64,000 nt of DNA from Polytrichum commune (taxonomy: Eukaryota; Streptophyta; Polytrichopsida; Polytrichales; Polytrichaceae). Made by a program: the position numbers and the translations under genes. The DNA is taken from the NCBI GenBank assembly GCA_950295325.1, contig OX485804.1, positions 23,870,001 through 23,934,000 of the forward strand, read 5' to 3'. Under the pieces are notes generated by a model. It worked only from the letters and a program-made list of their open reading frames with translations. It had not been told where the DNA came from and searched no databases. This document shows, one piece after another, positions 2,774 to 30,409 of the stretch. The stretch's first letter is position 1. Each line of letters begins with the position of its first letter.

Positions 2774-3229
2774 GCGAACGACCGTTCGTGAATGAAGGCT
2801 GCGGGGCGGTGCGCATCATTTACGAACGCTCGTTCGTGAGCGCGGATGCATACATATACGAACGCTCGTTCGCGAAGGATGTCAAGATGGGGTCGCACAG
2901 TTTTACGAACGAGCGTTCGTGAGTGAGGTGTGCATGCAAAGAATGCAAGGACGCGCAAGAGCACAAACAACACAAGACGCGAGAATATGCAATAAGTTGA
3001 GGGGATGCGAGCAGAGATCGTCTGCTCATATATTAATTCGGTGAATATGTACATTTGTCTCGCGTGATAATCTATCACGATTTCCTAAGGAAAAAATGCA
3101 GTGTCCTACAAAATTGATCGGCCCAAGCGATCACGTAGAAAAATGCTCGCGCGGGCAACGTGATGTCGATGGAGTTGAAGCGCCAAGAACACAACGCGGG
3201 GGTTAGTGATATTACGAACGCGCATTCGT
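2774..3229. repeat. palindrome cluster A (5 copies) in intron 3
   Basis: Five copies of the core ACGAACGNNCGTTCGT or close variants start at 2774, 2822, 2858, 2905 and 3214. All fall inside the inferred third intron (3260 down to 2638, minus strand) of the split gene. Spacing is irregular (36 to 309 bp), and the sequence between copies is not repeated. The family continues in clusters B, C and D. Confidence 0.9.
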
Positions 3230-3265
3230 AAAACATTTGGCATTCTCAGAGATGAGTTACCTCTT

Positions 3266-3273
3266 TGATTAAC
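3266..3273. repeat. target-site duplication, left copy (TGATTAAC)
   Basis: The 8 bp TGATTAAC immediately left of the terminal CAGGGTTGT is repeated exactly at 19639-19646, right of the matching inverted terminus. Eight base pairs is the usual hAT duplication length. Confidence 0.95.
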
Positions 3274-3363
3274 CAGGGTTGTCTATCGCAACGTCATGAC
3301 GGTGTCGTGCCGTCATGTCAGGTCGTGTCATGACGGACCCCTCCGTCACGACACAATAGGGTC
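3274..3363 (+). repeat. left terminal and subterminal repeat of the 16.4-kb hAT
   Basis: The first 9 bp, CAGGGTTGT, match the right end exactly in inverse. The next 80 bp contain several direct and inverted copies of a GTCATGACGG or CCGTCACGAC motif. The same motif in GTCGTGACGG form fills 19562-19626. The arms match as families of short motifs and do not align as one long repeat. Confidence 0.85.
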
Positions 3364-3548
3364 CACGTAGGGTCAACATAGGGGGAATGGACTAGGGTGG
3401 GTAAAATACTTACCTTCTTGCCAAGGTGGCGTCCTATGTGGCAGAAAACGCCGACGTGGATGTGCATATTTCCCTTGCCAAGTAAACCATTTTGCCATTG
3501 TGTTTAGGGTTCTGTTAAAATCAAAGTAGAAAAATATGACTAAGGAGG

Positions 3549-4468
3549 GTGTGGGGCGGCCGGGGGCGGACGGTGGGGCGGACGGGAGAGGGGGGTGGAG
3601 CGGACGGGGGAGGGGGGTGGAGCGGACGGGGGAGGGGGTGGAGCGGACGGGGGTGGGGCGGACGGAGGGGGGTGGAGCGGACGGGGGAGGGGGTGGAGCG
3701 GACGGGGGTGGGGCGGACGGAGGGGGGTGGAGCGGACGGGGGAGGGGGGTGGAGCGGACGGGGGAGGGGGTGGAGCGGACGGGGGTGGGGCGGACGGAGG
3801 GGGGTGGGGCGGACGGGGGAGGGGGTGGAGCGGACGGGGGTGGGGGTGGAGCGGACGGGGGTGGGGGTTGAGCGGACGGGGGTGGGGCGGAAGGGGGTTG
3901 GGAACGGGGGGGAGAACGCTGGAGCGGACGGGGGAACGTGGGGGTGGACGGGGGGAACGCGGAGGGCTCCGTCCGCCCCAAGTTCCCTCACGTCCGCCCC
4001 ACGTTCCCCCGCCGTGCGTTCACGTTCCCACACGTTTCCTAACGTCCGCACCCGTTCCCTACTGCGTTCCCCCCAGTCCGCACCCGTTCCCTCCCGTCCG
4101 CGCCCGTTCCCCCCCAGTCCGCACCCGTTCCCTTCCCGTCCGCCCCGCGTTCCCTTCCCGTCCGCCCCGCGTTCCCTTCCCGTCCGCCCACGTTCCCTCC
4201 CGTCCGCCCACGTTCCCTTCCGTCCGCCCCACGTTCCCTCCCGTCCGCCCCAGGTTCCCTCCCGTCCGCCCCAGGTTCCCTCCCGTCCGCGCTACGTTCC
4301 CCTCCCGTCCGCCCGCGTTCCCCTCCAGTCCGCCCCACGTTCCCCTCCCGTCCGCCCCATGTTCCCGTACGTTCCCTCCCGTCCGCGCTCCGTTCCCTTC
4401 CGTCCGCCCGAGTTCCCCTACGTCCGCCCCCTCGTTCCCTCCGTCCGCCCCCGCGTTCCCACGTTCCC
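3549..4468. repeat. GC-rich GCGGACGGGG array, two opposed halves
   Basis: The first half (about 3549-3971) repeats units such as GCGGACGGGGGAGGGG. The second half (about 3972-4468) is the same theme on the other strand, with units like CGTTCCCTCCCGTCCGCCC. Together they make a near-1-kb imperfect inverted repeat centred near 3970. Units vary from 12 to 20 bp, and the low-complexity open frames on both strands are products of the repeat. A TATA box and the kinase-like gene follow. Possible roles are subterminal binding sites for the transposase or an upstream promoter region. Confidence 0.9.
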
Positions 4469-4536
4469 CATACGTCATTTTCGTGCCCCATGTCAAATCC
4501 GACCGGGATCCCATAATGATTGTGCTCCCCTTTGCC

Positions 4537-4544
4537 TATATAAA
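4537..4544 (+). promoter_or_regulatory. TATA box of the kinase-like gene
   Basis: TATATAAA lies about 70 bp beyond the GC-rich array and 226 bp before the chosen ATG at 4770. The leader between them is pyrimidine-rich, with short 'attcactcactc' repeats. Confidence 0.7.
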
Positions 4545-4769
4545 GCTGTGGGGTTTTAATTCCCCTCACTTTCCTCTCCTCCCACCACAAAGGGACCCGA
4601 GACCTTGTTGCCGTCCCAAGGACAGCGGCACCGCGCGGGTCTCAGGGGGTTTGGGAGGGCAGGGCAAATTGTGGGGGAACCCTCGCAATTTTTTTTCCAG
4701 ATTCACGCACTCATTTCTACATTCACTCACTCCTTTTTACATTCACTCACTCACGCGGTTTTTTTCACG

Positions 4770-6686
4770 ATGGAGGGGGAGGACATTGCTCCTTACCAAG
4801 ACGAGGATACGAGGCTGCACCGTGCTTGGCTCCAAAGCACTGCACTTGCGCATACTGGAGAGGGTACGGGAAGCGAGGCCGGAAGTGGAAGCACTGCAGC
4901 ACGTCCCCCACGTCCAGATCCTTTTCGGTTTGACGAAGAGTTCTTTGCAGTTGGCCATTCAGGAGACAACCAAACACGTGGAAGCCGTGGAACACGTGGG
5001 AGTCGGGGAAACAGTGGACATAGAGGGAGAACAGGAAGGGGACCAAGCTCAGGCAGTTCCACCGATATAAATGCAGCCACTCATGGAGAGTCCGTGCCAC
5101 CACGATCTCCGACACGGCGGACATCAAGACCGGAGAGCCCTGCACGTGATGTACCTCAGGGTTCGGAGCATGGTGAAAGACGGGGACAAAAACGCCCAGC
5201 AATTTCGGAAGGGACGGAGGAGGGGTCCGGGGTTTCAGGTTCGCAATCGAGGAAAATGAGAAATAGAGGCAAACGCGACCCGCGGATCGATGAGGCTCGA
5301 AACCATTGTAGGGTCGTGCTGTTGGAGTGGTTTAGAAATAACAGCATGGTTTATTTGGAAAAAAAATACCTCAATGATGGTACAAAGGGGTTGGATTTGG
5401 TGAGGAACGATTTGATTCTTATTCTCACGGAAGCCACGACTGGAGCGGAGTTTGAAGATGCTAGGGGCATGAGCGATTGGGGCACCTGGATTGAACAACA
5501 AGCCGTGGAAGCAATCTACAATCCAACAATGGCATATGATGCTGTGCATCCTAGCGAGGGAAGTAGTAGTGGCAGGAAGTCCGAGTTGTACATGAAGCTA
5601 GAGAATTGGAAAAGAGGCGTAATAGCAGCAAAAGGAACATCCGCCCGCAACCTTCCCATTTTTATTGACAGGCAGATGGCAGACAACATTGCCACCCAGG
5701 GCCGGCAGGGTGTCATATGGTTGCCTAGGAATGCGGAGATCAAAGCCTTGGATAAGGAAATCTTCCAAGGGACCTTCGGAGTGGTGCGGAGAGTCGCAAT
5801 TCATGGAGCATCATTCATCCCTAGCTAGATAGAGTGGGCTGGGAAGACCATGAAGGCCATGAATAGTTTGGAGAATCGAAAGGAACGTTCAGTTGAAGCA
5901 TTGGCGTGTCCAGTAGATCATCCTGGGGTAATCAAGCTACAATACTTCAATATGAAAACATACGAATCCTATTCGATGTGGTGGAATGGAGGCTCCTTGA
6001 AAAACATGAGGATCTATGACTTCAGCGTTCCGGAAACCCACGAGCGCACAATCCTTCACATGCCTGGGGCAGACTTTGAAGCACGGAAACGGTTGGTTGT
6101 ATATCGAAGGCATCGAGCTTATTTGGCATGGGCTCTAATGTGCATTGTGGATGTAGTGCACAAGCATGACGTGTTGCACAATGACCTTAATCCCAACAAT
6201 GTCATGCTGCATTTCCCACAAGACCGTGAAAACATGGTTTACATTGGTGTGTGTGATTGGGGCATGGCATCCTGGGGAGGTGAAGACGCACCCTCCAACT
6301 ATGGAAAAGATTCAGTGGATGAGATGAACAAGCACAAAGCAAAATACAACTGTGCTGGTCCAGAATTATTCCATGTACGAGGGCAGCGTGGAACATCCAC
6401 CTCTCCGGTGAGGATGGCTCGGAAACATAGGCACACGTTTCTATCGGAGTCCTTCTCAGTGGGTGCTTTGGCAAAGAAGATTTATGCCAGGGATGCGACT
6501 TCCCCCTTGTTTCAGCTAAACAGTGATCCAAATGGCTTGAATATGCGGTTTGAGTTAGCATTGGATTCATTGACGAAGACCAATCCAGCGGAAAGGTCAA
6601 CCATCACACACGTAGTGAACATTTTGAAGTCCCCTCCATACAACATGGTTAACCCGACAATGTGCTTCCGTGACACTGCAAAATAG
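4770..6686 (+). pseudogene. degenerate protein kinase, hAT cargo, in-frame TAG
   Basis: One frame runs from ATG 4770 to TAG 6684-6686, about 638 codons, broken only by a TAG at 5826-5828 (codon 353). The first 170 residues are low-complexity, rich in Arg, Gly and Ser. The kinase domain follows: glycine loop GTFGVVRRV (about 337-345), a lysine in EWAGKTMK a few codons after the TAG, catalytic loop VLHNDLNPNNV (about residue 470) and CDWGMAS in place of DFG. Having HND for HRD and DWG for DFG makes it an atypical kinase or pseudokinase. The stop falls between the glycine loop and the lysine, so a truncated product would have no catalytic site. AATAAA follows at 6750-6755. A TATA box and the GC-rich array lie upstream. 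Its role in the transposon is unknown. The TAG may be a C-to-T change in CAG, or may be read through. Confidence 0.75.
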
Positions 6687-8982
6687 ATTTTTTTTGTTTT
6701 TTTTGCAACAATTTTGAATCATACCAATTTTGTAACCGTTGGAGATGTAAATAAAGCCATCATTTTTTCATACAAAACTTGTATATTGTATGAGGTTTAT
6801 GGATCTTAGTGCAATGTTCATACTACTCCATGAGGCCTTTGCTCCATAATCGAGAAGAAGTCTATGGGAGGCTAACCAAGGTTCTCGCCTCTCGTGAGGC
6901 CACATCCTTCTTTCACATCGTTGTTATCACATCCATGTGCTAAGTTCAAGTTAACTATAGTTATTTGTGATATGTCTTGAAAAAATGCAGTTACTTATAT
7001 TTATTCTAATTTTGGTATGCCACAAAATGTAGTCAACTATAGTTATATCTAGTTAACTAAAGTTGAGCACAATATTGCAATAGTTATATCGGTTGTACAC
7101 GTGATCCAAAACATCTCTAAATGTTATCTTTCTTCTACTCCCCACATATTGCACACTATAAATGTTAAACGTGTTAACAGTTAACAAAATGGTACTCCTT
7201 TCTTTGTAAATCTGACTCTATAAACGTTAACAGATGAAATACAACCATAATATGGATGATAAAAACTACACATCCAGTTACATTGATTCATATTCACTCG
7301 TGATTTGTAAACTTGATATTGAATAAAGTTTTGATTGGGTGTGCAATTTTATGAATGGTATTCTCTCACAATGAATCTTTACAATTGCTTATATTTATAT
7401 AATTCACAATCACTTTTTTTTGGAAGTTTGGACATATTCTTGGCCGTCCACGTTGAGAGGCCGTGCGATTGAGTGGCCCAACTTTGTTGATAGTCCAAAG
7501 AAATGAACTGAAAATAGCCAAGAAAATATAGTAAGGGTAGCCTTAGTTGGGCATAGTGTGAAGCCTCCAAAGGCCAATCCCAAAGTCCAAACTCAAAGGA
7601 GCATGCCACTTTATTCCTTGCTCAAAATAACCCCTCCAATCTAACGGCCAAGATCTTGTCAATGATTGATTATTTTAATGAAAAAAAAGTTCGGCCTCTC
7701 GACGGAAGTTTGGGTTGAGCATTTTGCTATACCCAATCTTTGCTCGAGAGGCCGAACTCTTGGCGCCATAACTTCCTAAAAGTGTTGCCACCTAGGCTCT
7801 TTTAGAGGCCACGTCCTTTGGACTTCGGCCTCTAGTGTGAAGGCCGAGAGGACGGACTTTGGGCATTTCAGCATTTTCATTGGTCCAAATGTTGAACCTC
7901 TCAAAGTTTGGCCATATTGTGAACCGGCCCTTATATTTGCAATACATGTCTTATTCTTTTTTGGCACAAATTGAAAATTCAAATTGAAAATACAACCAAC
8001 CCAGCCGAAACAGCGCAGCCTAAGTGGAAATCTAGAAATAATGCTCATTTGAGGCCTATCCTTCCAAGTAGGGACTAAGTTGCTACGGGTCACAGTAAGA
8101 CCTTTGACCCCCCAAATCAAATCAAATTTGTTAAGAATGTCATGGTAGGCCACGTCCGGGGCTTTTTCCAAGTCCCTAAGCATCTGTTTCCATTCAATCC
8201 TCCCATACTCTGATTTGTAATACATGTCATAAAAGCTAATGCAATTATTGTTTTGAAGTCTACCATCAAATGATATGTAAGATCGTATGTTCACTTGTGG
8301 TTGGTTCTTTTTATGTACCAGTTTAAGCCAATACTAAAATAAAATAAACCTTATTCTATAAAATCTAGTGACACTACCATACAAGTTAGTAGAGATGTTG
8401 TATATTTTTTTAAATTATTCTATATATTTACATAACTACAACTTATAATTTTGTGAAGAATAATACATAATACAACAAAGTTCAAATCAATACCTCTTTT
8501 GTGCACTCACATATACTCATACGGATTTAGTATAGTGCACCCCCCCCCAAATGATCACTAATGTGGGCCACATTAAATTTAAGCCCACACCAAATCCCTA
8601 GTTTAATATCAATGTGGACCATATTAATTTGCTTTTCTAGAATGTTCTAATTTGTGTAAGGTGTTGGTAAGATATCTTTATGAAGCCTATAGGAATTCGG
8701 GGGATGCACTCTACATTATGTTTGAGAATCACGTGCGTTCATGACCCCTTCTAAAAATCCCAATGTATACCATAAGTTATATGTCTAAGTAGAGATTGTG
8801 CCAACTTGAAGTAGTCCTCGTGATTTGCGAACGTTTAACTTTCGTTGTAGGCATCGTAAAAAAAAGCGGGTGGGTTCGTTGGAAAGCTGGGAACCTAAAC
8901 CCTCAAACCATGTATGGAAACACTTCTACATGAGTGAGAGAACAAAACAACGGCACATATGTGGTAGCAATTTGGAATGACG
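6687..8982. other. AT-rich non-coding interior of the hAT
   Basis: After the kinase-like gene there is 2.3 kb without a recognised gene. A minus-strand open frame at 7776-8294 (172 codons) has no recognisable domain and no promoter signal. The stretch 7430-7940 contains several inverted copies of a 'gaggccg' phrase and may be a decayed inverted-repeat element. Confidence 0.45.
7688..7758. repeat. hairpin with 15-bp perfect arms
   Basis: AGTTCGGCCTCTCGA at 7688-7702 is matched by its exact reverse complement at 7744-7758. A second, inner pairing is formed by TTTGGGT and ACCCAAT-type sequence. The 71-bp fold is compact. It could be a small MITE remnant or the source of a small RNA. No target duplication was found. 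Confidence 0.65.
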
Positions 8983-9019
8983 TAGGGTTTAGGGTTTAGG
9001 GGTTTAGGGTTTAGGGTTT
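8983..9019. repeat. interstitial telomere-type TTTAGGG tract
   Basis: About five units of TTTAGGG with one extra G, which is the plant telomere repeat. It is immediately followed by an 82-bp tandem array. It lies inside the 16.4-kb hAT. Confidence 0.85.
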
Positions 9020-9315
9020 ATGAACCACAAAGGTTGAAGCACAAATATGTGAATTGTCGAATGAAAGGGCAAGGGGATGCGTGTGGGTTGTGAAACCATA
9101 CGAACCACTAAGGTTGAAGCTCAAATATGTGAATTGTTGAATGAAGATGGCATTCGGATGCCTAATATGCGTTGTGAACCATATGGACCACAAAGGTTGA
9201 AGCACAAATATGTACTTTGTTGAATTAATATAACATTCGAATGCGTGTGGGTTGTGAAACTATACGAACCACTAAGGTTGAAGCTCAAATATGTGAATTG
9301 TTGAATGAAAGGACA
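9018..9315. repeat. tandem array, about 82-bp unit, nearly four copies
   Basis: The phrases 'accacaaaggttgaag' or 'accactaaggttgaag', then 'aaatatgtgaattgttgaatg', recur about every 82 bp. Alternate copies resemble each other more (CACAAAGG versus CACTAAGG), so a dimer was probably duplicated. It directly abuts the telomere-type tract. Confidence 0.85.
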
Positions 9316-9516
9316 ACCCATCAAATATAGAAGCTTCAAAGAGGTTTCCAATGCGGGTGTCGGGGGACTTTTTCAAAAAGTGCAACTAACTTTTTGACTT
9401 CACCAACTTTCTTTTTATTCCTATTGTGTTGTCTTTATCCTACCAACGAGAATTGGATCCTCTACATCTTGGATTACATCAAATATTGTATATTTCATAA
9501 AGTCCTTTGAGCTCAA

Positions 9517-9524
9517 TATATAAG
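9517..9524 (+). promoter_or_regulatory. TATA box upstream of the acidic-protein gene
   Basis: TATATAAG lies 42 bp before the ATG at 9566, so the leader would be very short. Unlike the other two plus-strand units of this element, no GC-rich array precedes it. Confidence 0.5.
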
Positions 9525-9565
9525 TAGAGCATTTAGACTCATACATATAACGAGGGTAGAGTATC

Positions 9566-10126
9566 ATGGATAGGATGGGAGAGAAGAGAGACATGTTTGA
9601 GGGTCTAGGATGTGATGAGGAGATAGAAAATTTAGGTGAACCCGATATTCCATTCAATCCATCAACCGAGCGTGAGAGAGATGAGAAATGTGTTAGGGAT
9701 CGATTTCATGATGAGTATGTCATGACTCCCTTCTCACAATCTACACAAGCTTGGAGGATGAGGGCGGAGGAGGACCAACGACGATATGCGGACAACTTTG
9801 AGATCGATGCGGTGGAGAATGACAACACACAATACGTGGGTGGAGATCTAAATGATCTGATTGATTTGTGTGCGGATATTTTAGAGAAGCCCGGGGATGT
9901 GGATGTGGAGGAGACTTCAATCGACATTGAAGATGTCAAGGTAGCGGGAGAATCTTCAAGGACTTTGCCTTTTCGTAAGAAGAGGAGAGGATTATCGCCT
10001 CATCGGCTACCATTGAAGGAACGGATGAAAGACCGAACGATTAGCTATGTTGATTTACTTCGACCGAATCCTCTCCCAAAAATGGACCTTCGACGGAAGC
10101 CACAAGCATCTACGAGGTTGCCATGA
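9566..10126 (+). CDS. small acidic protein of unknown function, hAT cargo
   Basis: An intact frame of 186 codons, ATG to TGA. The protein is hydrophilic. The first two thirds are acidic (many Glu and Asp, including a GDLNDLIDLCADILEK helix-like stretch). The last third is basic, with FRKKRRGLSPHRLP as a possible nuclear localisation signal. No domain is recognised, and no signal peptide or membrane segment is seen. A TATA box lies just upstream and AATAAA at 10223-10228 downstream. It is the only cargo unit with no stop codon or frameshift. It might be an accessory protein of transposition, but nothing in the sequence proves that. Confidence 0.55.
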   Translation: MDRMGEKRDMFEGLGCDEEIENLGEPDIPFNPSTERERDEKCVRDRFHDEYVMTPFSQSTQAWRMRAEEDQRRYADNFEIDAVENDNTQYVGGDLNDLIDLCADILEKPGDVDVEETSIDIEDVKVAGESSRTLPFRKKRRGLSPHRLPLKERMKDRTISYVDLLRPNPLPKMDLRRKPQASTRLP

Positions 10127-10417
10127 CGGAAGTCAAGTTGACGGAATGAAGTGGAATATTAAATCGTGCATGGTTTGTTCATGTATGTGATTTATAAAGG
10201 GCATTTGTACCGTCGTCGCAATAATAAAGTCATTACTTGTACATCTTTGTCTCCATAGGGGTGATAATTTGTTGGTCATCATACTACATTGGTTACTTTG
10301 TTGCTTGAGGGATGCTTCATTAGTTTTGTGTGGATAAGTACACTGGTAATGATATTTAGTGTCACATATATTATTTGCAAAGGGCCTAAGTTAGATGGGG
10401 TACGGATTGGGGGACGC
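10127..10417. other. 3' flank of the acidic-protein gene
   Basis: AT-rich, with the likely poly(A) signal at 10223-10228. A 'tgatatttagtgtcac' phrase at about 10348 belongs to a short motif family also seen at 26.1, 27.3, 41.8 and 44.3 kb. Confidence 0.5.
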
Positions 10418-10582
10418 GGGAATGTGCAGTAGAAATATTATTGCATATTTATGTAGAGGACTTCATTACCTATCCATGGATACCAAGAACTCATTTTTTG
10501 GACTTCATATGAATTTTTGAGAGCCAAAAAACCGAAACTATGTCCAAACTTCCAAACTTGAAAAGTGCAGATTCAAAGGAAC
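10418..10582 (-). repeat. single inverted copy of the 192-bp repeat of 44.8-45.2 kb
   Basis: Read on the minus strand, this segment matches the tandem units at 44798-45240: a phrase beginning GGAAGTTTGGACATAG, then a homopolymer-flanked 'gtttttt', then a 'gtatccatggata' phrase. It directly abuts the start of the internal GC-rich array. Confidence 0.85.
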
Positions 10583-11282
10583 TCGGGAGCGGACGTATGG
10601 GAACGCTAGAGCGGACGCAGGGGAACTCTAAAGCAGACGTAGGGGAACATGGGGCGGACTTATAGGAACGTTGGAGCGGACGTAAGGGAACATGGAGCGG
10701 ACGGGGGGGAGCGGAAGGGGGGGGGGGCGGGGGGGAGTGGACGGGGGGAACGCGGGAGCGGACTGAGGGGAGCGGACGTAGGGAACGAGGGGGCGGATGT
10801 AGGGAACGAGAGGGCGGACGTTTGGGAACGGGTGCGGACGGGGGTGGGAACGGGTGCGGATTGGGGGGGAACGGGCGCGGAAGGGAGGGAACGGGTGCGG
10901 ACGGGGGTGGGAACGGGCGCGGAAGGGGGTGGGAACGGGCGCGGAAGGGAGGGAACGGGTGCGGACTGGGGGGAACGCGGGGGGCGGACGTTTGGGAACG
11001 GGTGCGGACGGGGGCGGGAACGGGTGCGGACTGGGGGGGAACGGGCGCGGACGGGAGGGAACAGGTGCGGACTGGGGGGGAACGCGGGCGCGGACGGAGG
11101 GGAACGAGTGCGGACGGGAGGGAACAGGTGCGGACTGGGGGGGAACGCGGGCGCGGACGTAGGGGAACGAGTGCGGACGGGGGCGGGAACGGGTGCGGAC
11201 TGGGAGGGGAATGGGCGCGGACTGGGAGGGGAACGGGCGCGGACGGGTGCGAACAGGGTGGGAACGGGGAGCGGATGGAGGG
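10583..11282. repeat. internal GC-rich GCGGACGGGGGAAC array
   Basis: About 700 bp of 14-20-bp units built on GCGGACGGGGGGAAC or GCGGACTGGGGGGAAC, all in one orientation. It ends 2 bp before a TATA box. Long open frames on both strands here are products of the repeat. Confidence 0.9.
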
Positions 11283-11283
11283 G

Positions 11284-11291
11284 TATATAAG
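11284..11291 (+). promoter_or_regulatory. TATA box of the coiled-coil/RING-like gene
   Basis: TATATAAG directly adjoins the internal GC-rich array. The first in-frame ATG is at 11757, about 470 bp on, so the leader probably contains an intron. A 'gatttccag' acceptor-like site lies just before that ATG. Confidence 0.65.
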
Positions 11292-11756
11292 TGGAGGGGA
11301 CCACTTACATATCCCACTCCACTCCTTGTGGGCGCCCGGACGACCCTCCTCTACTACAGAGTGCGGGGTTTAGCGGGGTGCTCGGAGGAGTTAAGGATCC
11401 TTTTTTTGGGATCCTTTTATATTTTTTTAATGACCTGTTTGTGGGTGTGATCCACATGGACCCGTTCCCTTGTAACGTGGCATATTGCCTTTTTGGCATA
11501 TTCCTTGTGACGCGCCCAGTCAACTGGCCTCTGCGTGAGCGCTGGTAGCGGGGTGCTCGAAGGGTGTGCTGAATTTTTGTACTTTAATTTTTAACGACAT
11601 TTTTGAACTAATTCCACAGCAACACTATTTTGAAGTGTATGCTTGGATGTTTTGTAGCACTATTATGAAGTGCAATTAATAATTTAAAAATTAGAGTTTA
11701 GATTAGAATTAGAAACTACAATTTGGGTGGATCCGGCAAGTGAAGGATTTCCAGAC

Positions 11757-14029
11757 ATGGCAAGTGGAGGATCTGGAGACATGGCAAGTGGGGGATCAGG
11801 TTGTCACAGATCACATGTACGCAAGGCCGCTGGGTTGGAGTGGGATGTTTATGATGACAACACCCAAAAAGCCAGGGCAGGTTGGGAGAATGTACCACAA
11901 CCGTGGTCAGTGAAGACTACAATGCAGTACGTGGGCTTCCCTCACTTTGATCGGTTGTGGCCAAGACCTTGTCACGAGCGACATTGCAAGGCCATCAGTG
12001 CGAGTTATATGCAGCTTGATGACGTGGAGGCAAAATGGAGATTCCTAACGATATTTAGAAGTATCTCCAATTTGGATAGATGGCCCAAGAGTGCAATTCC
12101 AAAGTCGGTGGCGTGTATGATGTATGCGGAGCACGTGTTGCGAGTTAGGGTGGATTGGTCAAGTTTGGCTACCCTGCATGGTCAAAAATTTGGGGATATT
12201 GGAATTGCATTCACTAAATGCACAGTTCCAGATATTCCATACACTCCCGTTCCGGAGTGGTTCAGGAGGAATCCTCGACTAGTGGACGAGCCTGGGGCCC
12301 CAATCCAGAGGGTTGGGAACCAAAAAAGCCACGTAATCGTAAACAACCAGCCAATGACGTGGAGATGGCCATCGAGGAGGCGTTTGAGCATATGGATGAG
12401 GGCATGGAGGCAAATGTCGAGGTTAACAACCTGATCAACGACGTGGTTAACGAGGTCCTAGACGAGGTAAACCTTGGTGAACATGGAGCGGACCCGACGG
12501 AGAGCAGAATGGAGGAATTGCGTAAACAACATGCGTTGGAAATTCGTGAGTATAAAACGATGATTTTCGAGTTGGAAAATCGAGTTGCAACACTTACGAT
12601 GGGGGAGGCTAGCAGTTCAAGTAGTACACCAATTAACCTTCAGTCTTTAGAAGCAGAGAGGGACGCAGCTTTACAGGAGGCCAAGATTGCAAAGTCACAA
12701 GCTCTGGAGGTATGTATGAGGAATGAAGTAATGCGAGGAAAGATGGAGGCTTTGCAAAAGGAGGTGGTGGACATGCAACAACAACTTCAAGTGGTCAATG
12801 AAGTGGTTGTTGATCACGAAGCCAAGATTGGCGGACTGGAGGAGCAGAATGCAAGGTTGAAGAAATTTCTGTTGGATGCGATTGTGGAGCGCAAAAATAT
12901 GAGGACAAGCACATTGGTTGCTATGGCCAAGGCTCATCAATTTGAAGCTGAGTTCGAGAGCATCCAGAAACAATGGAACCGCAATCAGAGAATGCGGAAT
13001 ATGATGCTCACGTCATGGCCAGAAGATGAGCAGATGTACCCTAGTAGGTGGGATATGGATAATGAGTGGACAATGCCAAACGGGAGCATCGATTGGCGTC
13101 AAGTGACCGACCCAGATCACCATTGGAATGTGACCCAAGTGCATGAATATCCATTCCGCATGAAGGGTGAGTTGTTATGGCCAAATCCACATACAATGGT
13201 CTTCGACGGAACCGCATGTGCGATTTGCCAATGTCCATTTGGCCCAGAGGGATGCTATCAAGTTGGATCATGTGGGGCCCAATTCCATCCACAATGTCTT
13301 ATAGGGAATATGATCAAGAAATGCCAATGTCCTCATTGCAGATCACCCTTCCACCCTCGTTTGTACCTCCAATTTGGCCTTCGGGATTACATGCCTAACG
13401 TCTGGGTATTAAAGCCATGGGACTTTCCCTTCGATCTTCAAGAGTTTGATGGGGAGAATGTTGACTAGAGTTGGTTATACAATTGTGCCAAGGTTGAGCT
13501 ATGGCACGAGAACAGAGATGGCGACTGGACACGGAATGCACGTCAAATTTTGTATGTTGCAGACGAGTTGTATCCCAACAAGCCCCCCGATCATGGCTTG
13601 AAAAGATTTTTGTACCAAACTCTTGAATGGCATTGGGATTCAACCAGCAGACAATTAAAGAGAGGCATTCATCCTCCTTGGTACAATGCAGCAGGTCTCG
13701 AATCAGTATCGGAGCATGATTTGGAAGAAGATGCAGATGACATGCCTACGGAACGGGATCCGAGATATGAATTGCAGTTAGAGGTGGGGTACCACAAGAA
13801 CAGGCTGCAGTTGGTTGCAATTGATGCACTCTTGCATAGAATTGCGGATGATGCGGTATTGAGATGGCTAAATGGTGGGCCTAGACCACGTAATGCCGTT
13901 CCATTGTCTCCTGGTAGTCGTCCATACTTCACCCGTGGAACAATGCGAAGTATGGAAGCGGGGGAATCATCACGAGCACGACGAGGATCTACTTCAGCTA
14001 GAATAGACCTCGATTCAGATTCGGATTAG
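11757..14029 (+). pseudogene. coiled-coil/RING-like protein, hAT cargo, frameshift and TAG
   Basis: One coding region can be followed over three pieces. From ATG 11757, frame 1 is sensible to about 12300. It continues one base out of frame from about 12300 to TAG 13466-13468, which fits a 1-base deletion near a 'ggggcccc' run. That frame is open again to TAG 14027-14029. The N-terminal quarter has no known domain. The middle (about 12500-13000) is a long coiled coil rich in Glu, Lys and Gln. Then comes a C3HC4-like zinc cluster with CAIC, a Cys, FHPQC and CPHC (about 13215-13345), resembling RING/E3 ligases. The C-terminus is charged and ends in a Ser/Asp-rich tail. A product of this kind might bind or ubiquitinate host proteins, but that is inference. 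The first piece ends soon after the shift and lacks the coiled coil and RING. Confidence 0.65.
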
Positions 14030-19102: not shown

Positions 19103-19112
19103 GTATTCGAAT

Positions 19113-19638: not shown

Positions 19639-19646
19639 TGATTAAC
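19639..19646. repeat. target-site duplication, right copy (TGATTAAC)
   Basis: Exact repeat of 3266-3273. Its last two bases are the first two of the palindrome core at 19645-19660, so the transposon inserted at the edge of a palindrome. Confidence 0.95.
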
Positions 19647-21022: not shown

Positions 21023-22679
21023 CTGTGAGAAGAGAGCAATAAGGTCAGAAAATACGAACGCACGTTCGTAAACATCAAAAGCGTAGCGTGCAACGAGTTT
21101 CAAGCATTACATTACGAAGGGATTATGTTTACGAATGAGCGTTCATAAACATGAATGCGTCACGTGCAGCGACTGTGAAACAATACATTGAGAAATTGGT
21201 TAACTTTACGAACGAGCGTTCGTAAATGGAGTCTGGACAACTTACCATAGCCGCATACATGAATTTGGAGCCTCCACATACGTTGTATACCATCTCTCCA
21301 CTTATAACCAGACTCTGCAATACAGAGACATAGAACTCCATCCTGAGTTCCATGGCGGGGAAGACGGTGTAGAGGGTCTCTTGCAGCAGATCCTTGGGAG
21401 GGGGATGCGGGATGCTGTAGATTTTCTTGAACGTGTTGTTTGCCTTGATAGGCGGTCGCCCATCCCTTAGCTCATTGTACGTCAAGAAAATCAGGCTGAC
21501 CGCTCCCACCTGCTTGTTGCCCCTGGCCTCGTTGATGGCCACGATCCCCTCCATCTTCGCTGGCACATACGTGCTGTGGAAGATGCTGTACTCGAATTTG
21601 ATCTTCTGCTCGTACAGCTCTGTGACCACAGACAGCTTCTCTTGTTCGACTATCCACAGCCAAATGTGTGGCTCCCTCATGGCCGGCGATTTGAACTCCA
21701 TGAACTTGGCCATGAAAGGGTTGTAGAAGGGAATGTCCTTCCCCCCCTGCCTTGACGCACCCGGGATCCCCCTGAAATCGATGAGGGCAAAAGGGCAACC
21801 CCGTCGATCCTTCCTCACCTCGGCCCTGCTGATGGTACCGTCCCACTTGGAAAATGTGACCCTCTCCACGCCGGAGGTGATCACGCAAAACCTTGCCACT
21901 CCTTCGAATGTGGCGTTCCTCTTCCTCTCCAAAAATTTTAAGTACAGCATAACCTCATGGGGATCCGTGTCGGTTTTCTTAGTCCTTTTGTTCCCCTTCA
22001 ACTTCAAAACCGAGGCGTGCTCCTTGACCAGACTGCGCATGGAGGCTCCGTTGATGTTGTAGTCGACCTTTAACATTTGCCATTGCGGCCAGATGATGTC
22101 GCCGTCGACTTCAAAGATTCTGTACTCTGGTACGAGTACGCTCAACTCTCTCATGGCTGCAGTCTTCAGCTTCCGGTGGTCACACCACTCCTTGATAGAG
22201 TACGTGCCGGGCTTGTGCTTTGGCCTCTTCAAAAAGATCTTGGGATAGGGAAGGGTTCTTCCCACGGTGTTCCCAAGAACATGAATCGCACACCTCTTCA
22301 GCTCTGACTCCGTCAATCCCTGGAGGTGTCTAAAGAACTCCCTCAGTAGTGGGGGCGCTTCACCGGTTTTTTCCGTGCTGTACTTCTCCTCCGTGTCGGG
22401 GTTGACCAAATCGCCCGAGCTGTGTGCATCAAAAAATTGGGTCCACAAATCCCATGTGTCCCTGTTGCAGCAGATCAGTCTGAGCTCACCCTTCAGCTCA
22501 AGCACAGACTTGGTGGTGGTGGATTTCATATCGATGGAAGAGAACTTGTCTACTATCGCGTCGCAAAATGCCTGCACAAAACAAGATGTCAGTGTTGCAC
22601 ATAATATGAACGCACGTTCGTAAATTGAGTACGTAATTGAAGTTTTCGTGAATCCAACACTTTACGAATAAACGTTCAT
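19645..22679. repeat. palindrome cluster B (7 copies) in exon 3 and introns 1-2
   Basis: Cores start at 19645, 20018, 21054, 21131, 21208, 22606 and 22664. Those at 21054, 21131 and 21208 fall in intron 2 (21245-21023). Those at 22606 and 22664 fall in intron 1 (22687-22572). 19645 and 20018 are in exon 3. The copies at 21131, 22606 and 22664 have one or two changed bases in the arms. Confidence 0.9.
21246..22571 (-). CDS. exon 2 of split gene: methyltransferase-like region
   Basis: This 442-codon exon begins after the acceptor gttttgtgcag and ends at the donor ATG|GTAAGT, phase 0 on both sides. Its end together with exon 3 reads GEMVYNVCGGSKFMYAAM then MMGLVVNTFVDAIDEEDF. That resembles the region around the AdoMet-binding FxGxG motif of N4/N6 DNA methyltransferases, which is usually followed by a GR.xxGIEid-type strand. 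Here the glycine-rich motif is degenerate (CGGSK), and no clear DPPY catalytic motif is seen, so activity is doubtful. ParB-methyltransferase fusions are known from phages and mobile elements, and this could be a distant derivative. The link to methyltransferases is inferred from the motif pattern. The rest of the exon is unrecognised. Confidence 0.7.
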
Positions 22680-22687
22680 AAACTTAC

Positions 22688-23980
22688 CTTCCATTGAGGA
22701 GACTGGTTCTTGGCGTTCTCCCTCTCCTTTGGTGGGCATCCGTGTGCCACCCAGACGTCTCTCGCAGCCACTATGTTAGCCGCCCACGAAGCCTCGAACG
22801 CCTTGATTTTGTTCCCCGAGTTCAGGAAGGTTGAAATCTTGCGCAGCTTGTCCCAATCGTCCGACCAGACCAAGAACGCCTTCCAGTACCGCAGGTCAGC
22901 CTTCAGCTCGTGCTGGAAGTTGTCGTCCTTGAGGATCTGTTGCGACGCCTCCAAGCTATGCTGACCATCTATAATCCAGAATTCTCCATTCTGGATTCGC
23001 GGCCAATCCATCTCTGTCGGTCGGGATGTCAGCCCCTTGGGCATGACGCAGACGGTCTGCCTATCCCACTTGACGTTGTTCATGAGGTTGTTGATATGCC
23101 ACTTCACCCCACCGCTCTCGCGAGACCTTACCACCCACTTGTTGGGGGACTTTTCGCACTTGAAGCAGTCCACGTTGAACGTGAAGTGGCGCCCCATGGG
23201 CCAGCAATCCTTTGAGTAATTATTGAAATCTCGTAGGATCTTTGTTGCCTTCACTGCATCTAGATTCTCACCCTTCTTTAAAGGGGTTGGCATCAGGGGA
23301 GGAGAGCTCACCTCAGCGCCCTCTGATACCCCAGACCTCTCCATTTCGTCCCGGGACCTCTTCGATGGCGTGGAATGTCGGCTGGGACCCTCCGTCACCC
23401 TGCTCGCGGAAGGCACCGGCCTGGGTGCACTTCTCGATCCTCCTGCCCCAGATGCTGATGGTTTTCGTGGGCTCTTCTTCTTCTTGTTGGCTTCGGCGAC
23501 CGCGCTATTGTACTTGGAGATATTCAAGGAAAGCGCGGCCAACTTCCTTGCTGTCCAGTACGAGCTCAGGGCGTACTTCGTGAACAGGTCCTTGAGGAAG
23601 TGTTTGGCATCAGCCACTACGTTATTTTCTGCGTATGTGTAGGAGAAACTATGTCTCCTGTACTCTAACAGGAGGTTAATGTGATCCTTCTTATTTTTCA
23701 TGTCTAAAATCACATAATCTCCTTGTGCCTCAATTGATTCTACTTCCCAAGTCTTCATCTGCACCCATTGCTCTGGCTGGTCCGGCGTTGTTTCCAGCTC
23801 GTAGGTGAAGCGAAGACAGAAAAGACCGTCTGATGTCTTCTCTGGCAGTGCCGTCCATTCCCCAATGAAGTCCTCCTTCGGGACATAATTATCGTTTCCG
23901 TTGGGGTCGGACACTGACTCTGGTAGCTGATCTATCTGCACTACGAACATCTCAATGGCGCTCCTGCTCGGTCTAGCCAT
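22688..23980 (-). CDS. exon 1 of split gene: ParB/DGQHR-like domain
   Basis: The exon starts at ATG 23980 (MARPSRSAIEM) and ends at the donor AAG|GTAAGT, 431 codons, phase 0. Residues about 333-347 read IIDGQHSLEASQQIL, the core of the ParB/sulfiredoxin-fold family, whose usual form is (I/V)DGxHRxxA; DGQHR is the DndB-type variant. Arg is replaced by Ser. A Lys/Ser/Pro-rich linker at about 165-230 includes KKKKSPRK, a possible nuclear signal. Upstream of the ATG there are eight palindromes within 560 bp. No helix-turn-helix is recognised. It is the first exon of a gene oriented away from the DUF7869-type gene at 30.5 kb. Confidence 0.75.
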
Positions 23981-24013
23981 CTGCAGAGCACATAAACATT
24001 TAGTATTGTGTTT

Positions 24014-24535
24014 ACGAACGAGCGTTTGTAATTGACAAGCAAATCATATATACTAATCAATGAACGCTGGCTATGGGTACCCGTGAGGAGTTTTAATTAT
24101 GTCTTCGCTGATTTCATTTACGAACGATCGCTAAGGTGTATTTGACACAAGTTTACGAACGTGCGTTCGTATTGTTTGTAAACAAGTCCACGAGTTGTCC
24201 AGTGTTATCTAATTTCCATGAGCATCTTCTAAATAGGTGAATTAATACTTTAGTTCTTAATTACGAACGTGCGTTCGTAAATTATGCTATTTGGGAATGC
24301 AGACAATTACCATTAAGGGTTTGGGATATTATTATAGTTTGTGATTACAAACGTTCGTTCGTATTTTTGTGTGTTTCATTTGGATTTGAGGATTTGAGGA
24401 TGTACAGGGTAAAGACGAATATACGAACGTGCGTTCGTAAAAATGGAGGGTGAGGTGCGTATTTACGAACGCACGTTCGTATATGTTTGTGGGGTAAGGC
24501 ATGTATTCACGCCACATTTACGAACGAACGTTCAT
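24014..24535. repeat. palindrome cluster C (8 copies) upstream of the ParB-like gene
   Basis: Cores start at 24014, 24120 (right arm decayed), 24155, 24263, 24347, 24423, 24465 and 24520. Spacings range from 35 to 108 bp. The first is 34 bp upstream of the ATG at 23980. The dense group occupies the position of a promoter or 5' leader. Confidence 0.92.
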
Positions 24536-26299: not shown

Positions 26300-26304
26300 T
26301 AGTA

Positions 26305-27277
26305 TGTCGCGCACCTCTCCATGAGGAGTGCCCGAAACACCATGGGCACAAGGGGGACCCCGGAGTGACACCCGGGACTTGTGGCGCCGTTGGTGAGAGG
26401 GCCCAAGTGATCCTAGTGTGGGTGAGGGCCCCGGGCGTTGGGAACGCCTCCCATCCACTGAGACTAGGAGGCACAAGGGTAAGGCCATGAGCTATGCGTA
26501 GCTCATGGCGTGGTGATTCTAGAAAGCTCAAGAACACCTCAATCGGAGGTGTGAGCTAGGAGTTATGGCCATTTGAGTGGGGCGCTGTCCCGGGACAGCG
26601 CCCTGGTACAGCAGTGCCTGGGAGTGATTCCCGGGACTGCCAAGGTTCAAACAGGCATAACTTCCTCAAGACTTGCCCGAATGGGGCAAGTGAGGTGTCC
26701 ATCGGCATCTACGTGAAGCGTAGATGAAGATGAAGTGGTTGGTTGCTGGAATCAGACATCATAAAAGGAAGTTATGATGGTCTGAAGCTGCAGGGGGGGT
26801 TCTAGGCCCAGCAGCTAAGGGAAAATGTCCACTTGGCCCCAACTCTTGGTAGAGAGACAAGAGGTTGGTTGACGGTGGGGTAGGGGCCCCGCGTAGAGTC
26901 CTAGAGGCTTATATGGGTGAGGTGGTGAGGCCTCACCCACCCGAGGCCGAACGGCAAGGCCTCCATGGGCTTTGGCCTATTGTGAGGCCATAGTTGCCTA
27001 GTATGGTTCGGGTTGTTGTAGTGTTGCTCCGGCAACGCGATGATCAACATAGGATTGGACTTCCATGGATGGAAGTCCACATTGGGGAAATGGGTTACCG
27101 ATTAAGGGGTGAATCCCGAAAGCAAAGTAGGAGGGTTGGTTCCCTCCTATGAACTATTGGTCCGGGGTAAGAGGAGCTATCCATTAGCATGGCGGAATGC
27201 GAATGGTTAGCGCTCGTAACCTTTGCTAGAAACGAAAATTGGCAAGATTGTTAAGGGACCTAGCAAGGGTTGCGACA
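26305..27277. mobile_element. solo LTR, copy 2 (TSD TAGTA)
   Basis: This 973-bp unit starts TGTCGCGCACC and ends GGGTTGCGACA, with direct duplications TAGTA at 26300-26304 and 27278-27282. It is the same family as 15979-16952 but in the opposite orientation, and its different target duplication shows an independent insertion. It has no coding capacity. Confidence 0.94.
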
Positions 27278-27317
27278 TAGTAGGAAATGTGGTGGCCCAT
27301 TTAATATGTCCAACACT

Positions 27318-27583
27318 AATTATCAAAGAATTGAAATTTAGTGTTGACCATGATAGTGTAACAACACAGTGACTATATTATACAATCAAACACTAAATAT
27401 CATATTTAGTGTAGTGTATTTTAGCCATGTGGTCGCATGTTTTGCTAGTAGTATCAAAGAATTGAAATTTAGTGTTGACCATGATAGTGTAACAACACTA
27501 TATTATACAATCAAACACTAAATATCATATTTAGTGTAGTGTATTTTAGCCATGTGGTCGCATGTTTTGCTAGTAGTATCAAT
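27318..27583. repeat. tandem duplication of about 130 bp
   Basis: A unit starting 'tatcaaagaattgaaattt' and ending 'gcatgttttgctagtag' occurs twice in a row; the second copy lacks about 8 bp present in the first ('cagtgact'). Each contains an inverted 'cactaaatatcatatttagtg' motif. Confidence 0.88.
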
Positions 27584-28960
27584 AATTGATAGTATGAGCT
27601 TCCCATAAATTAAGTTAGTGCGATATGGATTATTTAGGAGTCGATATTGTTTGTGTATATAATGCATTGAAGTAACGATCTAAACCCTAAGCCCGCAAAC
27701 CACATAGACAACTTTCACAAACTCTATACCCTAACCCCAAACCCTAAACCCTAAACCCTACATTTTTTTACCTTACCAACCTTTCTTATATATGGCCATG
27801 TTGTGGTCTATGGGCATCATGTCAAAATGGTCTACAAATGTTGGTTCGATTGGAACTTGCCTTATTTGGGTCATAGCAACTATAATAATCTAGACTCATG
27901 CCAATAATTGTCATTTTGATATAAAACATTGGTTTAGGGGGTGAAGAATGAATTTTGAAATGCTAGCCCTTTCACCTTAATAGTTTTGAGTGCAATTTGA
28001 TCACAAAATACACACTTAGTCTTATTATAACATGAATGGTTTAAGACTTCAACTTAAATCAACAGTTTAAGCTATGGTCATGCACATACTTCTTGTTACA
28101 AATAATACAAATATATAATTGTAAGTGCATACTATTGTATGCACCATTCTAAATTAGTTATCCATTTTCACACTATGGTGGACCTAAAGTGAATTTCCAA
28201 TAGGACGTCAAGTCATTTAATTAGGTGCCAACTTGAACTAATGATCGAATACTAGTGCATTAAACTTTAATTTTCACCAATGATGAATTGCAACAATGAG
28301 TCATATTAATATAGGGCGATGTTTGGTGAGCCTCCAGTTCCAAATGTCCTCAATCTACCTAGCACAAGCCACTATGGATTAAGCGACTTTTTATTGGTAT
28401 TCATGCACTTGGTGACCATATTACAAGCATTTTTTTATGTGAATCATATGATACCTACAATTTTAGGGGATTCCACAATATGTTCTTAGCCACTTTTACC
28501 TCATTGTGTGTGTGAATATATATATCACTTAGACCTTCATCAATTCACTTGGACTTCACACCTTAGTCGCAAATAATTTAATACTCAATGTTAACCCATC
28601 AACCCATATATATAAAATATAATAACCCATATATAAAATAGTAAAATAGTAAAATAGTAAAATATACACATATATATATATGTCTATATATATATATATA
28701 AATATAGACATATAGACATATAGACATATTTTCGTGCGACCTTGGTAACAACTAAGGTGTGCGACGGATTTATAGATTTACAATATGTTGCGTGCATGCA
28801 ATACATGTTCCATACATAATGCTATTTATATATTGCGCATGGATGGAATGACATATTGTTAGGTCAAAATAGGCGGCGGGAATCCGCTTTTTAAATAGCA
28901 TCCAAGGGATTTTGAACCATCGGGGGAAAGATACTTAAAGCTCTTCCCCCCACAGAAGAG
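27584..28960. other. AT-rich spacer with a second telomere-type tract
   Basis: CCCTAAA units (about 27722-27755), opposite in strand to those at 8983, are the only repeat of note besides a TATATA and ATAGACATATAGAC microsatellite (about 28600-28735). No gene is seen. The region becomes more GC-rich at about 28875, just before palindrome cluster D. Confidence 0.65.
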
Positions 28961-29106
28961 CTATTTTCTGTGACACATCCAAGTGTGCGCTCCACAGACC
29001 TGACTGGAACGCGCTCAAACCATTTTCTTGTGCGCCAACCCCACACCTCCCAGGTCCACTACAGACTATACATACCCGTATATACCGCTGCAAATACCGG
29101 ACGTTT

Positions 29107-30409
29107 ACGAACGCACGTTCGTAAACGTGAGTTGGTAGCACATGCACAAGAGGTACATAGAGATGATATGAATTGTTTACGAACGTGCGTTCGTAAGTTG
29201 TTCACAACCGTACTCGACATTGAGTTACTTATAGATAGAACTAGGCACGAAAATTGTGTCGATTATATACGAACGTACGTTCGTATATCTGCCTTCAAGA
29301 CCCAGACGCGCATGAGTTCCCGTGTAACCGTTTTCTCCAACGGAACATTTGATGATGGGATATTTACGAACGTGCGTTCGTAAATATCACCTGGGATTAT
29401 TTTTCAAGAATCCATAAACAATCCTTAATTTACACACTTCCGTGCATTGGCCACGTTAACAATATGGAAGTTAAATACGAACGTTCGTTCGTATTTCTCA
29501 CTACCATTTATGTCCACAGAGAATTATGTTTTCCAATTTTACGAACGCACGTTCGTAAATACCACCTGTCCACCGTCCACACATCCACCAACAGACCTGT
29601 TAACGCAAGCATGTGTGGAGGACTACACCATGTTTAGGATAGATACGAACGCTCGTTCGTATTTGGCACTACCATTTATGTCCACGGATAATTATGTTTT
29701 TCAATTTTACGAACGCACGTTCGTAAATACCACCTGTCCACCGTCCACGCATCCACCAACAGACCTGTTGACGCAAGCATGTGTAGAGGACTACACTGTG
29801 TTAATGATAGATACGAACGCTCGTTCGTATCTGTTCAATCACGATTTTAGTGATAGATGTCGATTGTCATTTTCCATTGGATATTGAATTTCATGTATCC
29901 CTGTAACGTGGCTATAGATATCTCTATTCGGACGTGTCCAATCATTTTTGCCTAACATTGTCACGGCTGTAACATACATATGATCGGTCGTATGCATCCG
30001 CCCCTATGTTTCGGCTGGAACTTACGAACGATCGTTCGTGTACATAAGCCCTCCATTTCGGCTGTAGCTAATGAACGATCGTTCATAAACACTCGCCCAT
30101 CAAATACACGCCCCTCAAATATGATGCTTACTGCATGTGAATAAAGTGGCAAGTATATTTTTGGTGCTCTTATAATATGTCCCATTTAGATTTTGTTGTA
30201 TATTGGGTTGATGTTTTCGTCCTCGCGTACGTGAATATATGTCCTTGTGTTGTCCCTTGGTGGTGGAAAACCCTTCCAATGTTTTATTTGCGACTCCACC
30301 AAAGCCCTTCATGGGTAATATATATCGGAATGGGGTTCCGTTGTGCAGGGACGTCAGAGTCCCGTGTAGGATTTGTATGTCATGGGGATGTTGTCGAACG
30401 CACGTTCGT
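29107..30409. repeat. palindrome cluster D (12 copies) upstream of the DUF7869-type gene
   Basis: Cores start at 29107, 29179, 29269, 29366, 29477, 29541, 29645, 29709, 29813, 30024, 30071 and 30394. Several have longer perfect arms, for instance 13 bp at 29107 and 14 bp at 29366. The outer bases differ between copies (TTTACG with CGTAAA, ATACG with CGTAT, GATACG with CGTATC) but stay complementary. Confidence 0.93.
29495..29830. repeat. tandem duplication of 168 bp carrying two palindromes per unit
   Basis: Units 29495-29662 and 29663-29830 share the phrase 'actaccatttatgtccac' and a CACC-rich stretch, and each has one CA-centred and one CT-centred palindrome. This shows how palindromes can multiply by local duplication. 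Other copies in the cluster share no flanking sequence. Confidence 0.88.

Follow-up and report, generated by a model that had tools for sequence, protein, structure and literature searches.

Family-specific palindromes in the non-coding DNA of a moss transposon and a candidate ParB-like protein that may read them

The 64,000-nt stretch of the Polytrichum commune genome analysed here (contig OX485804.1, positions 23,870,001 to 23,934,000; hereafter the window) carries a DNA transposon whose non-coding DNA is occupied by many copies of a short palindrome. Our central result is that the palindromes of related transposon families in this genome have different letters and the same design, with two arms separated by a 2-nt spacer, as well as the same non-coding placement in each family. 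The palindromes are probably (with a probability of roughly 0.6) family-specific binding sites of the product of the transposon's own gene A, for which a ParB-like fold is predicted; we infer this binding, as well as its possible downstream function in anti-silencing, from sequence comparisons and a structural model. The preliminary description of this DNA proposed binding sites of a dimeric protein, a mobile palindrome, or RNA hairpins, belonging to a larger element, and the first of these three options is the best supported one. The occurrence of different palindromes in related families and the intron and promoter pattern are new with respect to that description.

Palindromes of the window and features of the element

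The whole window was scanned with the pattern ACGAACGNNCGTTCGT at up to three mismatches, with 100 dinucleotide shuffles as a control. The scan gave 36 matches, whereas the shuffles averaged 1.10 and never exceeded 4, and the removal of four out-of-register overlaps (1534, 2909, 29473, and 30020) left 32 distinct sites, 20 of them exact, in agreement with the about 32 copies reported previously. The sites are located at 1530 (one), 2774-3229 (five), 19645-22679 (seven), 24014-24535 (seven), and 29107-30409 (twelve). The clusters listed previously agree with these positions, except that eight sites were counted at 24014-24535, where an additional copy near 24119 has four mismatches (as read from the sequence letters) and is below the scan threshold, and that the one-mismatch site at 1530 was not listed. 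At the same threshold, no copy is present in the nested hAT-type element (scanned at 3277-19638) or in the region 34101-64000, and none follows 30409 in the window, which bears out the two absences claimed earlier. The full conserved site is longer than 16 bp: the alignment of 130 distinct sites (up to one mismatch) from six loci gives TTTACGAACGNNCGTTCGTAAA, the central two nucleotides of which are nearly free in sequence.

Genome scans covered the 408-Mb assembly, which consists of 64 contigs; the seven contigs C1-C7 are of 42-78 Mb. The copy of the transposon in the window is referred to as W, the C5 copy (loci L003 and L004) as Y, the C6 copy as V, and two partly fetched copies as X and Z. 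The exon borders of genes A and B, with GT-AG borders in the case of A introns, are predictions from sequence reading and not from transcripts. Features of the window are as follows.

438-34095: complete DNA transposon with terminal inverted repeats (TIRs), 17.3 kb long when the nested hAT-type element is not counted; the same two ends and colinear blocks occur in copies Y and V
434-437: left 4-bp target-site duplication (TSD), TTGG
34096-34099: right 4-bp TSD, TTGG
438-466, plus strand: left TIR
34067-34095, minus strand: right TIR
3274-19638: nested hAT-type element, palindrome-free, with a DUF659 open reading frame (ORF) and the 8-bp TSD TGATTAAC
1870-2655, minus strand: gene C, NLI-interacting-factor-like (CTD-phosphatase-type) product, PF03031, E 5e-16
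19802-23980, minus strand: gene A, ATG at 23980, stop at 19802, 1279 aa
22688-23980, minus strand: gene A exon 1, ParB-like domain with IIDGQHS motif, fold taken from the homologue of the ACGG family (see below)
22572-22687, minus strand: gene A intron 1, palindromes at 22606 and 22664
21246-22571, minus strand: gene A exon 2, the corresponding part of the ACGG-family model being faintly like DNA N6-adenine/N4-cytosine methyltransferases (Z 5.1-5.5)
21023-21245, minus strand: gene A intron 2, palindromes at 21054, 21131, and 21208
19802-21022, minus strand: gene A exon 3, palindrome within the coding sequence at 20018-20033
30370-32029, plus strand: gene B exon 1, open frame, start approximate
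32030-32172: gene B intron
32173-33692, plus strand: gene B exon 2, DUF7869, PF25273, E 1.2e-37, presumed transposase; stop at 33692
2774-3229: palindrome array 1, upstream of gene C, with four of its five sites at 2774-2920 and the fifth at 3214
19645-19660: palindrome 3' of gene A, right at the insertion point of the hAT
24014-24535: palindrome array 3, seven sites, upstream/5' region of gene A
29107-30409: palindrome array 4, twelve sites, upstream of gene B; the last one, 30394, is in the exon 1 open frame

Genes A and B are divergent, being located on opposite strands.

Placement and family specificity of the palindromes

In the window element, the palindromes precede genes C, A, and B and occupy both introns of A. 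At up to two mismatches, 30 of its 31 sites are outside the coding sequence (CDS) intervals, which represent 45% of the element length (binomial P 2.7e-7 for one coding site in 31); in this count B was taken from 30430, with the site at 30394 in the open frame upstream of it, and the site at 1530 is in an unassigned ORF. The sole CDS site, 20018 in exon 3 of A, has a counterpart in Y at 4376. The initial coding intervals of Y placed two of its 30 sites in CDS (4376 and 5400), the latter of which was assigned to an intron, since it is located before the exon 3 acceptor. In the loci of other families, the palindromes were counted without presupposing their letters. None of the 77 sites of L022, L023, L024, and Q is inside a coding segment defined by tblastn, and sites are present in the predicted introns of A in all four loci; three of them have sites in the predicted B intron as well.

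In none of the three complete copies (W, Y, and V) is a site (up to one mismatch) within 1 kb of either TIR, the leftmost site being 1.09-1.13 kb from the left end and the last one 3.7-3.9 kb from the right end. A layout of subterminal repeats was therefore rejected.

The families were named by their motifs: ACGA (that of the window), ACGG, TGGG, CACG, and GTGA. Loci L023 and L024, whose B products are 77-85% identical to B of the window, carry ACGGACGNNCGTCCGT, while L022 (56-70% identity) carries TGGGTCGNNCGACCCA. Loci P and Q (33-51%, depending on the segment) do not contain the window motif and carry CACGGGTGNNCACCCGTG, as do L020 and L021. In the more distant loci L015-L017 (about 36% identity over DUF7869), which represent the GTGA family, GTGAGGCANNTGCCTCAC-like sites form tandem arrays, with a spacing of 59-62 bp in much of L015; L016 and L017 are weaker cases, since their GTGA-type sites occur almost only at one mismatch. 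In the same three loci GTGAGGCATATGCCTCAC-like sites were observed, the core GGCATATGCC being commoner than the full site. Locus L025, which belongs to the CACG group by its B, has no standard motif and contains three to four copies of a variant with CCACGGGC arms. At up to one mismatch, the numbers of own motifs in the five groups were 177, 36, 23, 40, and 47, whereas all the off-diagonal numbers were 0, apart from the ACGA/ACGG cross-talk (3 and 7).

A search for any repeated palindrome of the 7-2-7 type gave the same picture. The most frequent arm was present in 4-33 copies in W, Y, V, X, K, P, Q, L015, and L020-L024, as compared with no arm above one copy in the shuffle control (30 shuffles per locus); it was present once in L016, once in L017, and twice in L025, and the most repeated palindrome of Z, L018, and L019 was an AT run. 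Genes C, A, and B are present in the ACGG, TGGG, and CACG families as well; homologues of gene C adjoin A in ACGG and CACG and were detected by tblastn in TGGG. A related element of about 9.5 kb was observed at L009 (C1:640001-647000), with terminal patterns at 639072 and 648558, 39 palindromes (up to one mismatch) in 7 kb, many of them 34 bp apart, and an 81-aa match to gene C.

The content of about four CpG sites per copy, noted previously, is valid for the window family. The numbers of CpGs fixed by sequence are four in the ACGG motif, two in the TGGG and CACG motifs, and none in the GTGA motif; thus, with the exception of ACGG, the other families disfavour CpG as an essential property of the sites.

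The motif that appeared confined to one locus is so within the window but not in the genome, where 5602 exact copies exist, as compared with 4 for the reversed control; the 100 places listed are clustered. Exact copies of the TGGG, ACGG, and CACG motifs number 10055, 1394, and 953 (reversed controls 1, 1, and 0, respectively). An even spread at the frequency expected from composition, or a known satellite, was not what the scan revealed, and a satellite was rejected, because the copies are in dispersed elements.

The prediction that the copies cluster only at loci with ParB-like or DUF7869-type genes was examined with the use of 26 clusters of the four family motifs, the first places listed on C1. 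A match to A or DUF7869 was within 15 kb of seven clusters (the gene lists comprising the best 95-150 places), and among the other 19, represented by 1.4-2.4 kb of sequence each, homologues of A, B, or C were found in 11. Taken together, homologues of these genes accompany 18 of the 26 clusters: they are found at 14 of the 15 clusters with a span above 5 kb, as compared with 4 of the 11 short ones. Thus, the association is seen in the long clusters, and the word "only" is not supported by the short ones. The gene-less short clusters may be non-autonomous derivatives. In three places of C1 (2256636, 28021449, and 29501590), CACG sites are spaced by 394-395 bp, and the 1.8-2 kb examined contains no element gene; these places may represent a family of non-autonomous derivatives that keeps the tag.

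Gene A product as the candidate reader and the alternatives

The comparison of the window element with Y indicates that the element genes are under constraint. Between these copies, which represent different subfamilies, ratios of non-synonymous to synonymous substitution rates (dN/dS) amount to 0.06 and 0.12 in exons 1 and 2 of A, 0.14 in exon 2 of B, and 0.17 in C, which is indicative of purifying selection on all three genes. Exon 1 of A is present in at least 97 genome copies (the best 97 of 1083 candidates), and the large DUF7869 group in at least 150 places (the best 150 of 1491 candidates).

In Pfam, gene A gave nothing better than E 0.015 (YEATS, one of 11 rows), and the sequence search of PDB with an A profile gave one match, of E 0.89. 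The AlphaFold2 model that was compared with known structures is that of the ACGG-family A (L028, with intron 1 retained), not of the window A. In Foldseek, ParB chains occupy the first three places for this model, at E 2e-3 to 1e-2, with no match reaching 1e-3. In VIA, the first 13 rows are ParB, Noc, KorB, and PadC, the best of them being Myxococcus ParB with Z 11.8 and a root-mean-square deviation (rmsd) of 2.6 over 95 residues. The ACGG-family A model thus has the fold of the ParB N-terminal domain, and by this predicted fold A may be likened to ParB-type readers of palindromes. All VIA rows from 32 to 50 are N6-adenine/N4-cytosine DNA methyltransferases, aligned with residues of about 700-927 at Z 5.1-5.5, which is too low to be decisive alone. 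In this stretch, the sequence of A weakly echoes methyltransferase motifs in N-V-F-G-G-T and D-F-R-x-I-P-G, the motif names being those in general use for these enzymes.

The right-end TIR core is common to the ACGA, ACGG, and TGGG families, although their palindromes differ, and the identity of A to that of the window decreases in the ACGG and TGGG families down to 40-49% and 34-37% for exons 1-2 (tblastn). The constancy of the TIR core, combined with the differences in both the palindrome and A, makes A a likelier reader of the palindromes than B, as far as can be judged from sequence.

The best of the alternatives is that the palindromes are bound by the presumed transposase B, for transposition or its regulation, in the way of internal or subterminal transposase sites. 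B is present in every palindrome-bearing family examined, and the motif differs along with B identity also (77-85%, 56-70%, and 33-52%). However, in the three complete copies no sites are within 1 kb of the TIRs, families that differ in their palindrome have the right-end TIR core in common, sites occur in introns and in the C and A promoters, and in the ACGG and TGGG families B is nearer to that of the window than A is. We therefore consider this explanation unlikely. The predicted structure of B, with a predicted local distance difference test score (pLDDT) of 38, gave no usable structural match.

Markedly less probable is the assumption that the palindromes are promoter or enhancer sites of host transcription factors captured by the element. 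It would account for the arrays upstream of C, A, and B, but a single host factor predicts a shared motif, and the motifs are private to the families, with little sharing, which disfavours this model; there are also intron and 3' sites besides those in promoters. Similarly improbable is the action of the palindromes as RNA hairpins, that is, as signals for splicing, stability, small RNA, or double-stranded RNA. Intronic sites do occur, and two single sites form better hairpins than do most or even all of their shuffles (z -2.7 and -5.5). On the other hand, intron 1, which contains two sites, folds no better than its shuffles (z -0.98), the arrays are located also upstream of genes, probably in promoter DNA, and the central 2-nt spacer is free in sequence, as in half-sites bound by dimers. 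No Rfam match was found in the window.

The least probable explanation, functionless spread of a mobile or self-copying palindrome or tandem-repeat drift, finds support in clear tandem duplications (the 168-bp unit at 29475-29830, the 34-bp spacing in locus K, and the 59-62-bp spacing of the GTGA family), but it is opposed by the same symmetric design with different letters and the presence in introns in each family, the near exclusion from CDS, the near absence of each motif outside its own family, and the lower divergence between W and Y of the motif core than of other aligned non-coding DNA (0.236 vs. 0.447, i.e., 24% vs. 45%, a comparison in which the alignment may favour motif columns).

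Several observations weigh against the assignment of A as the reader of functional sites, and we gather them here. Tandem duplication explains part of the palindrome copy number. In younger copies, the motif core is conserved only slightly better than other non-coding DNA (Y-V 0.024 vs. 0.031; Y-X 0.023 vs. 0.027; V-X 0.018 vs. 0.031) or worse (W-Z 0.049 vs. 0.033). The motif varies along with B too, and between the window and Y gene A differs at dS 0.7-1.2 with the motif unchanged. Two DUF7869 loci, L018 and L019, have none of these palindromes in the 7 kb examined, nor any repeated 2-nt-spaced palindrome except AT runs; 8 of the 26 clusters have no A, B, or C protein match in the short stretch examined; and the site 3305 of Q is in a 501-aa open frame that has no tblastn match.

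As to the structural model, its mean pLDDT is 47, with residues 251-390 at 58-85. Free serine kinase, sulfiredoxin, and SbnI, which are not parS binders, follow the ParB group on the same stretch with Z up to 8.7, and 5 of the first 13 VIA rows reach residues 609-618 with the second ParB domain, at rmsd 7-12. Additionally, the methyltransferase motifs look degenerate, with DFRxIPG in place of DPPY, and the ParB patch GERRxRA is absent from A, in which DGQHSxxA or HGQHTxxA is present at the aligned position in the ACGA, ACGG, TGGG, and CACG families. GERRxRA is the arginine patch that binds cytidine triphosphate (CTP) in ParB (PMC7022226). With GQHS or GQHT in this patch and degenerate methyltransferase motifs, neither the use of CTP nor methylation can be claimed for A.

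The synonymous divergence between the window and Y is 0.72-1.18 for A, compared with 0.22 for B and 0.14 for C. That A is so far above B and C in dS, with no change of the motif, indicates that the A block has its own history, as if it had been exchanged between element lineages to give a mosaic. The intergenic DNA between A and B, like A itself, is far more diverged between the window and Y than C and B are.

If A is indeed the reader, its dimer would recognise the palindrome of about 22 bp, with its 2-nt spacer; the predicted ParB-like domain of A is followed by helical and faintly methyltransferase-like regions. Arrays in the promoters of C, A, and B and in introns would enable A to find and occupy the element's own non-coding DNA, and tandem duplication would multiply the sites. 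The bound protein would most likely keep the element expressible, by anti-silencing or by local modification of chromatin or DNA, as VANC does for VANDALs; alternatively, it could control its own transcription in the way of KorB, a ParB relative of plasmid RK2. As the motif and A differ together between families, each family would recognise only itself.

Ends of the transposon, related systems, and significance

The TIRs of the element have the form AACACTATATTCG(G/T)TA..T(T/C)GGAGACTTT. All three copies with both ends have 4-bp TSDs, namely, TTGG in the window, TTTA/TTTA in Y, and TTAT/TTAT in V. The ends and colinear blocks of the window region 438-34095 are shared by Y (16.2 kb), which matches V (16.1 kb) end to end, while the match of X and Z to the window, within the parts fetched, begins only at about 20.4 kb and extends to the right. 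The terminus pattern occurs 414 + 433 times in the genome and 0 times in the control. Short derivatives resembling miniature inverted-repeat transposable elements, with terminal repeats in opposite orientation about 250 bp apart, were observed at C1:35049227-35049478, C1:55075624-55075875, and C1:56295364-56295610.

The hAT TSD TGATTAAC is located at 3266-3273 and 19639-19646. The larger element, delimited by its TIRs and TSD and having the hAT inside, is therefore older than the hAT, as the preliminary description proposed. Besides the DUF659 ORF, the nested hAT (16.4 kb) contains ORFs that weakly match kinase and RING families, in both cases below the Pfam cut-off. A repeat of about 975 bp, 97% identical and in opposite orientation, is shared by the hAT (15979-16953) and the A-B intergenic DNA (26304-27277). 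Outside the transposon, about 36 tandem copies of a 72-bp unit resembling the coding sequence of leucine-rich repeats are present at 56187-58751, and the window contains TTTAGGG-type repeats.

Elements of the CACTA (En/Spm) type have 2-3-bp TSDs and CACTA at their very ends, and they contain subterminal repeats bound by the element-encoded TnpA. The moss element resembles them in having multiple copies of a short motif and an element-encoded reader, here a candidate, but its sites are internal, with none within 1 kb of the ends, the ends are AACACTA, and the TSD is of 4 bp in all three copies. The 4-bp TSD is a feature of Sola elements, which are known in a moss (PMC10741241).

The VANDALs of Arabidopsis are Mutator-type elements, and their VANC proteins are not known to be ParB-like. 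The moss element resembles the VANC system in the arrangement of its sites. VANC21 binds the motif YAGTATTAY, located mainly in the non-coding parts of VANDAL21, that is, in VANC21 and VANB21 introns and upstream of VANA21 (PMC5735166), and the targets of VANC6 carry other motifs (PMC5735166; PMC10398659). In the moss families, too, there are dense, family-specific short motifs, mainly in non-coding regions, including introns and regions upstream of genes, their arrays grow by tandem repetition, the motif differs between related families, and a reader, for which A is a candidate, appears to be encoded by the element. However, the nine-base YAGTATTAY is shorter than the 22-bp palindromes with two-fold symmetry described here, and the moss element carries ParB-like, CTD-phosphatase-like, and DUF7869 proteins.

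The giant transposon Sola1-1_Ec32 of Ectocarpus encodes a protein with ParB and DNA-methyltransferase parts opposite the transposase gene, and its authors suggest that this protein binds and modifies the sequence of its own element (PMC12477816). The moss element, too, is a large DNA transposon whose ParB-like protein, over 1000 aa long, is encoded on the other strand than the presumed transposase, and A may have a methyltransferase-like region as well, the proteins being likened by domain description. No target sites are mentioned in the accessible part of the algal account, while in the moss element candidate, family-specific sites are visible; moreover, the methyltransferase motifs of the moss A look degenerate and a third, phosphatase-like gene is present. 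ParB-methyltransferase proteins of algal transposons are already in print, and the candidate palindromic targets with private letters are, in relation to the accessible part of that account, new here.

In the ParB-parS, Noc, and KorB-OB systems, multiple short palindromes are located on the replicon that encodes their reader (PMC7022226; PMC11790492), and KorB represses promoters from distal OB sites (PMC11790492). The moss element shares with them these multiple palindromes and the predicted fold of the ParB N-domain; it differs in being a eukaryotic transposon, in which the CTP patch GERRxRA is not conserved and the DNA-binding domain, a central parS-binding helix-turn-helix in ParB, is recognised only tentatively. 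The moss element combines features of VANC, of the algal ParB-methyltransferase, of Sola TSDs, and of KorB. In the open-licence PMC literature we found no paper on DUF7869, nothing relevant that joins ParB, a transposon, and palindromic sites, no paper linking such motifs with CACTA, and no paper joining NLI interacting factor, ParB, and a transposon; among the open-licence PMC papers listed first on algal transposon methyltransferases and N6-methyladenine, none concerned ParB.

A wider picture, which we offer tentatively and hold at slightly less than even odds, is that of a eukaryotic parS-like system of self/non-self recognition that characterises a superfamily of plant DNA transposons. In it, private palindromes in promoters and introns would be read by a ParB-like protein, the methyltransferase region of which is degenerate, and by its partner resembling CTD phosphatases. 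Each family would in this way protect or control only its own copies, with at least four code pairs of motif and reader in one genome. Candidate targets can now be seen in four families; their letters differ, their two-fold design does not, and each motif has hundreds to thousands of copies, so that the co-evolution of readers and sites is directly testable with short oligonucleotides. If true, this would represent a second, apparently independent, origin of the VANC-style, family-specific recognition of self by transposons.

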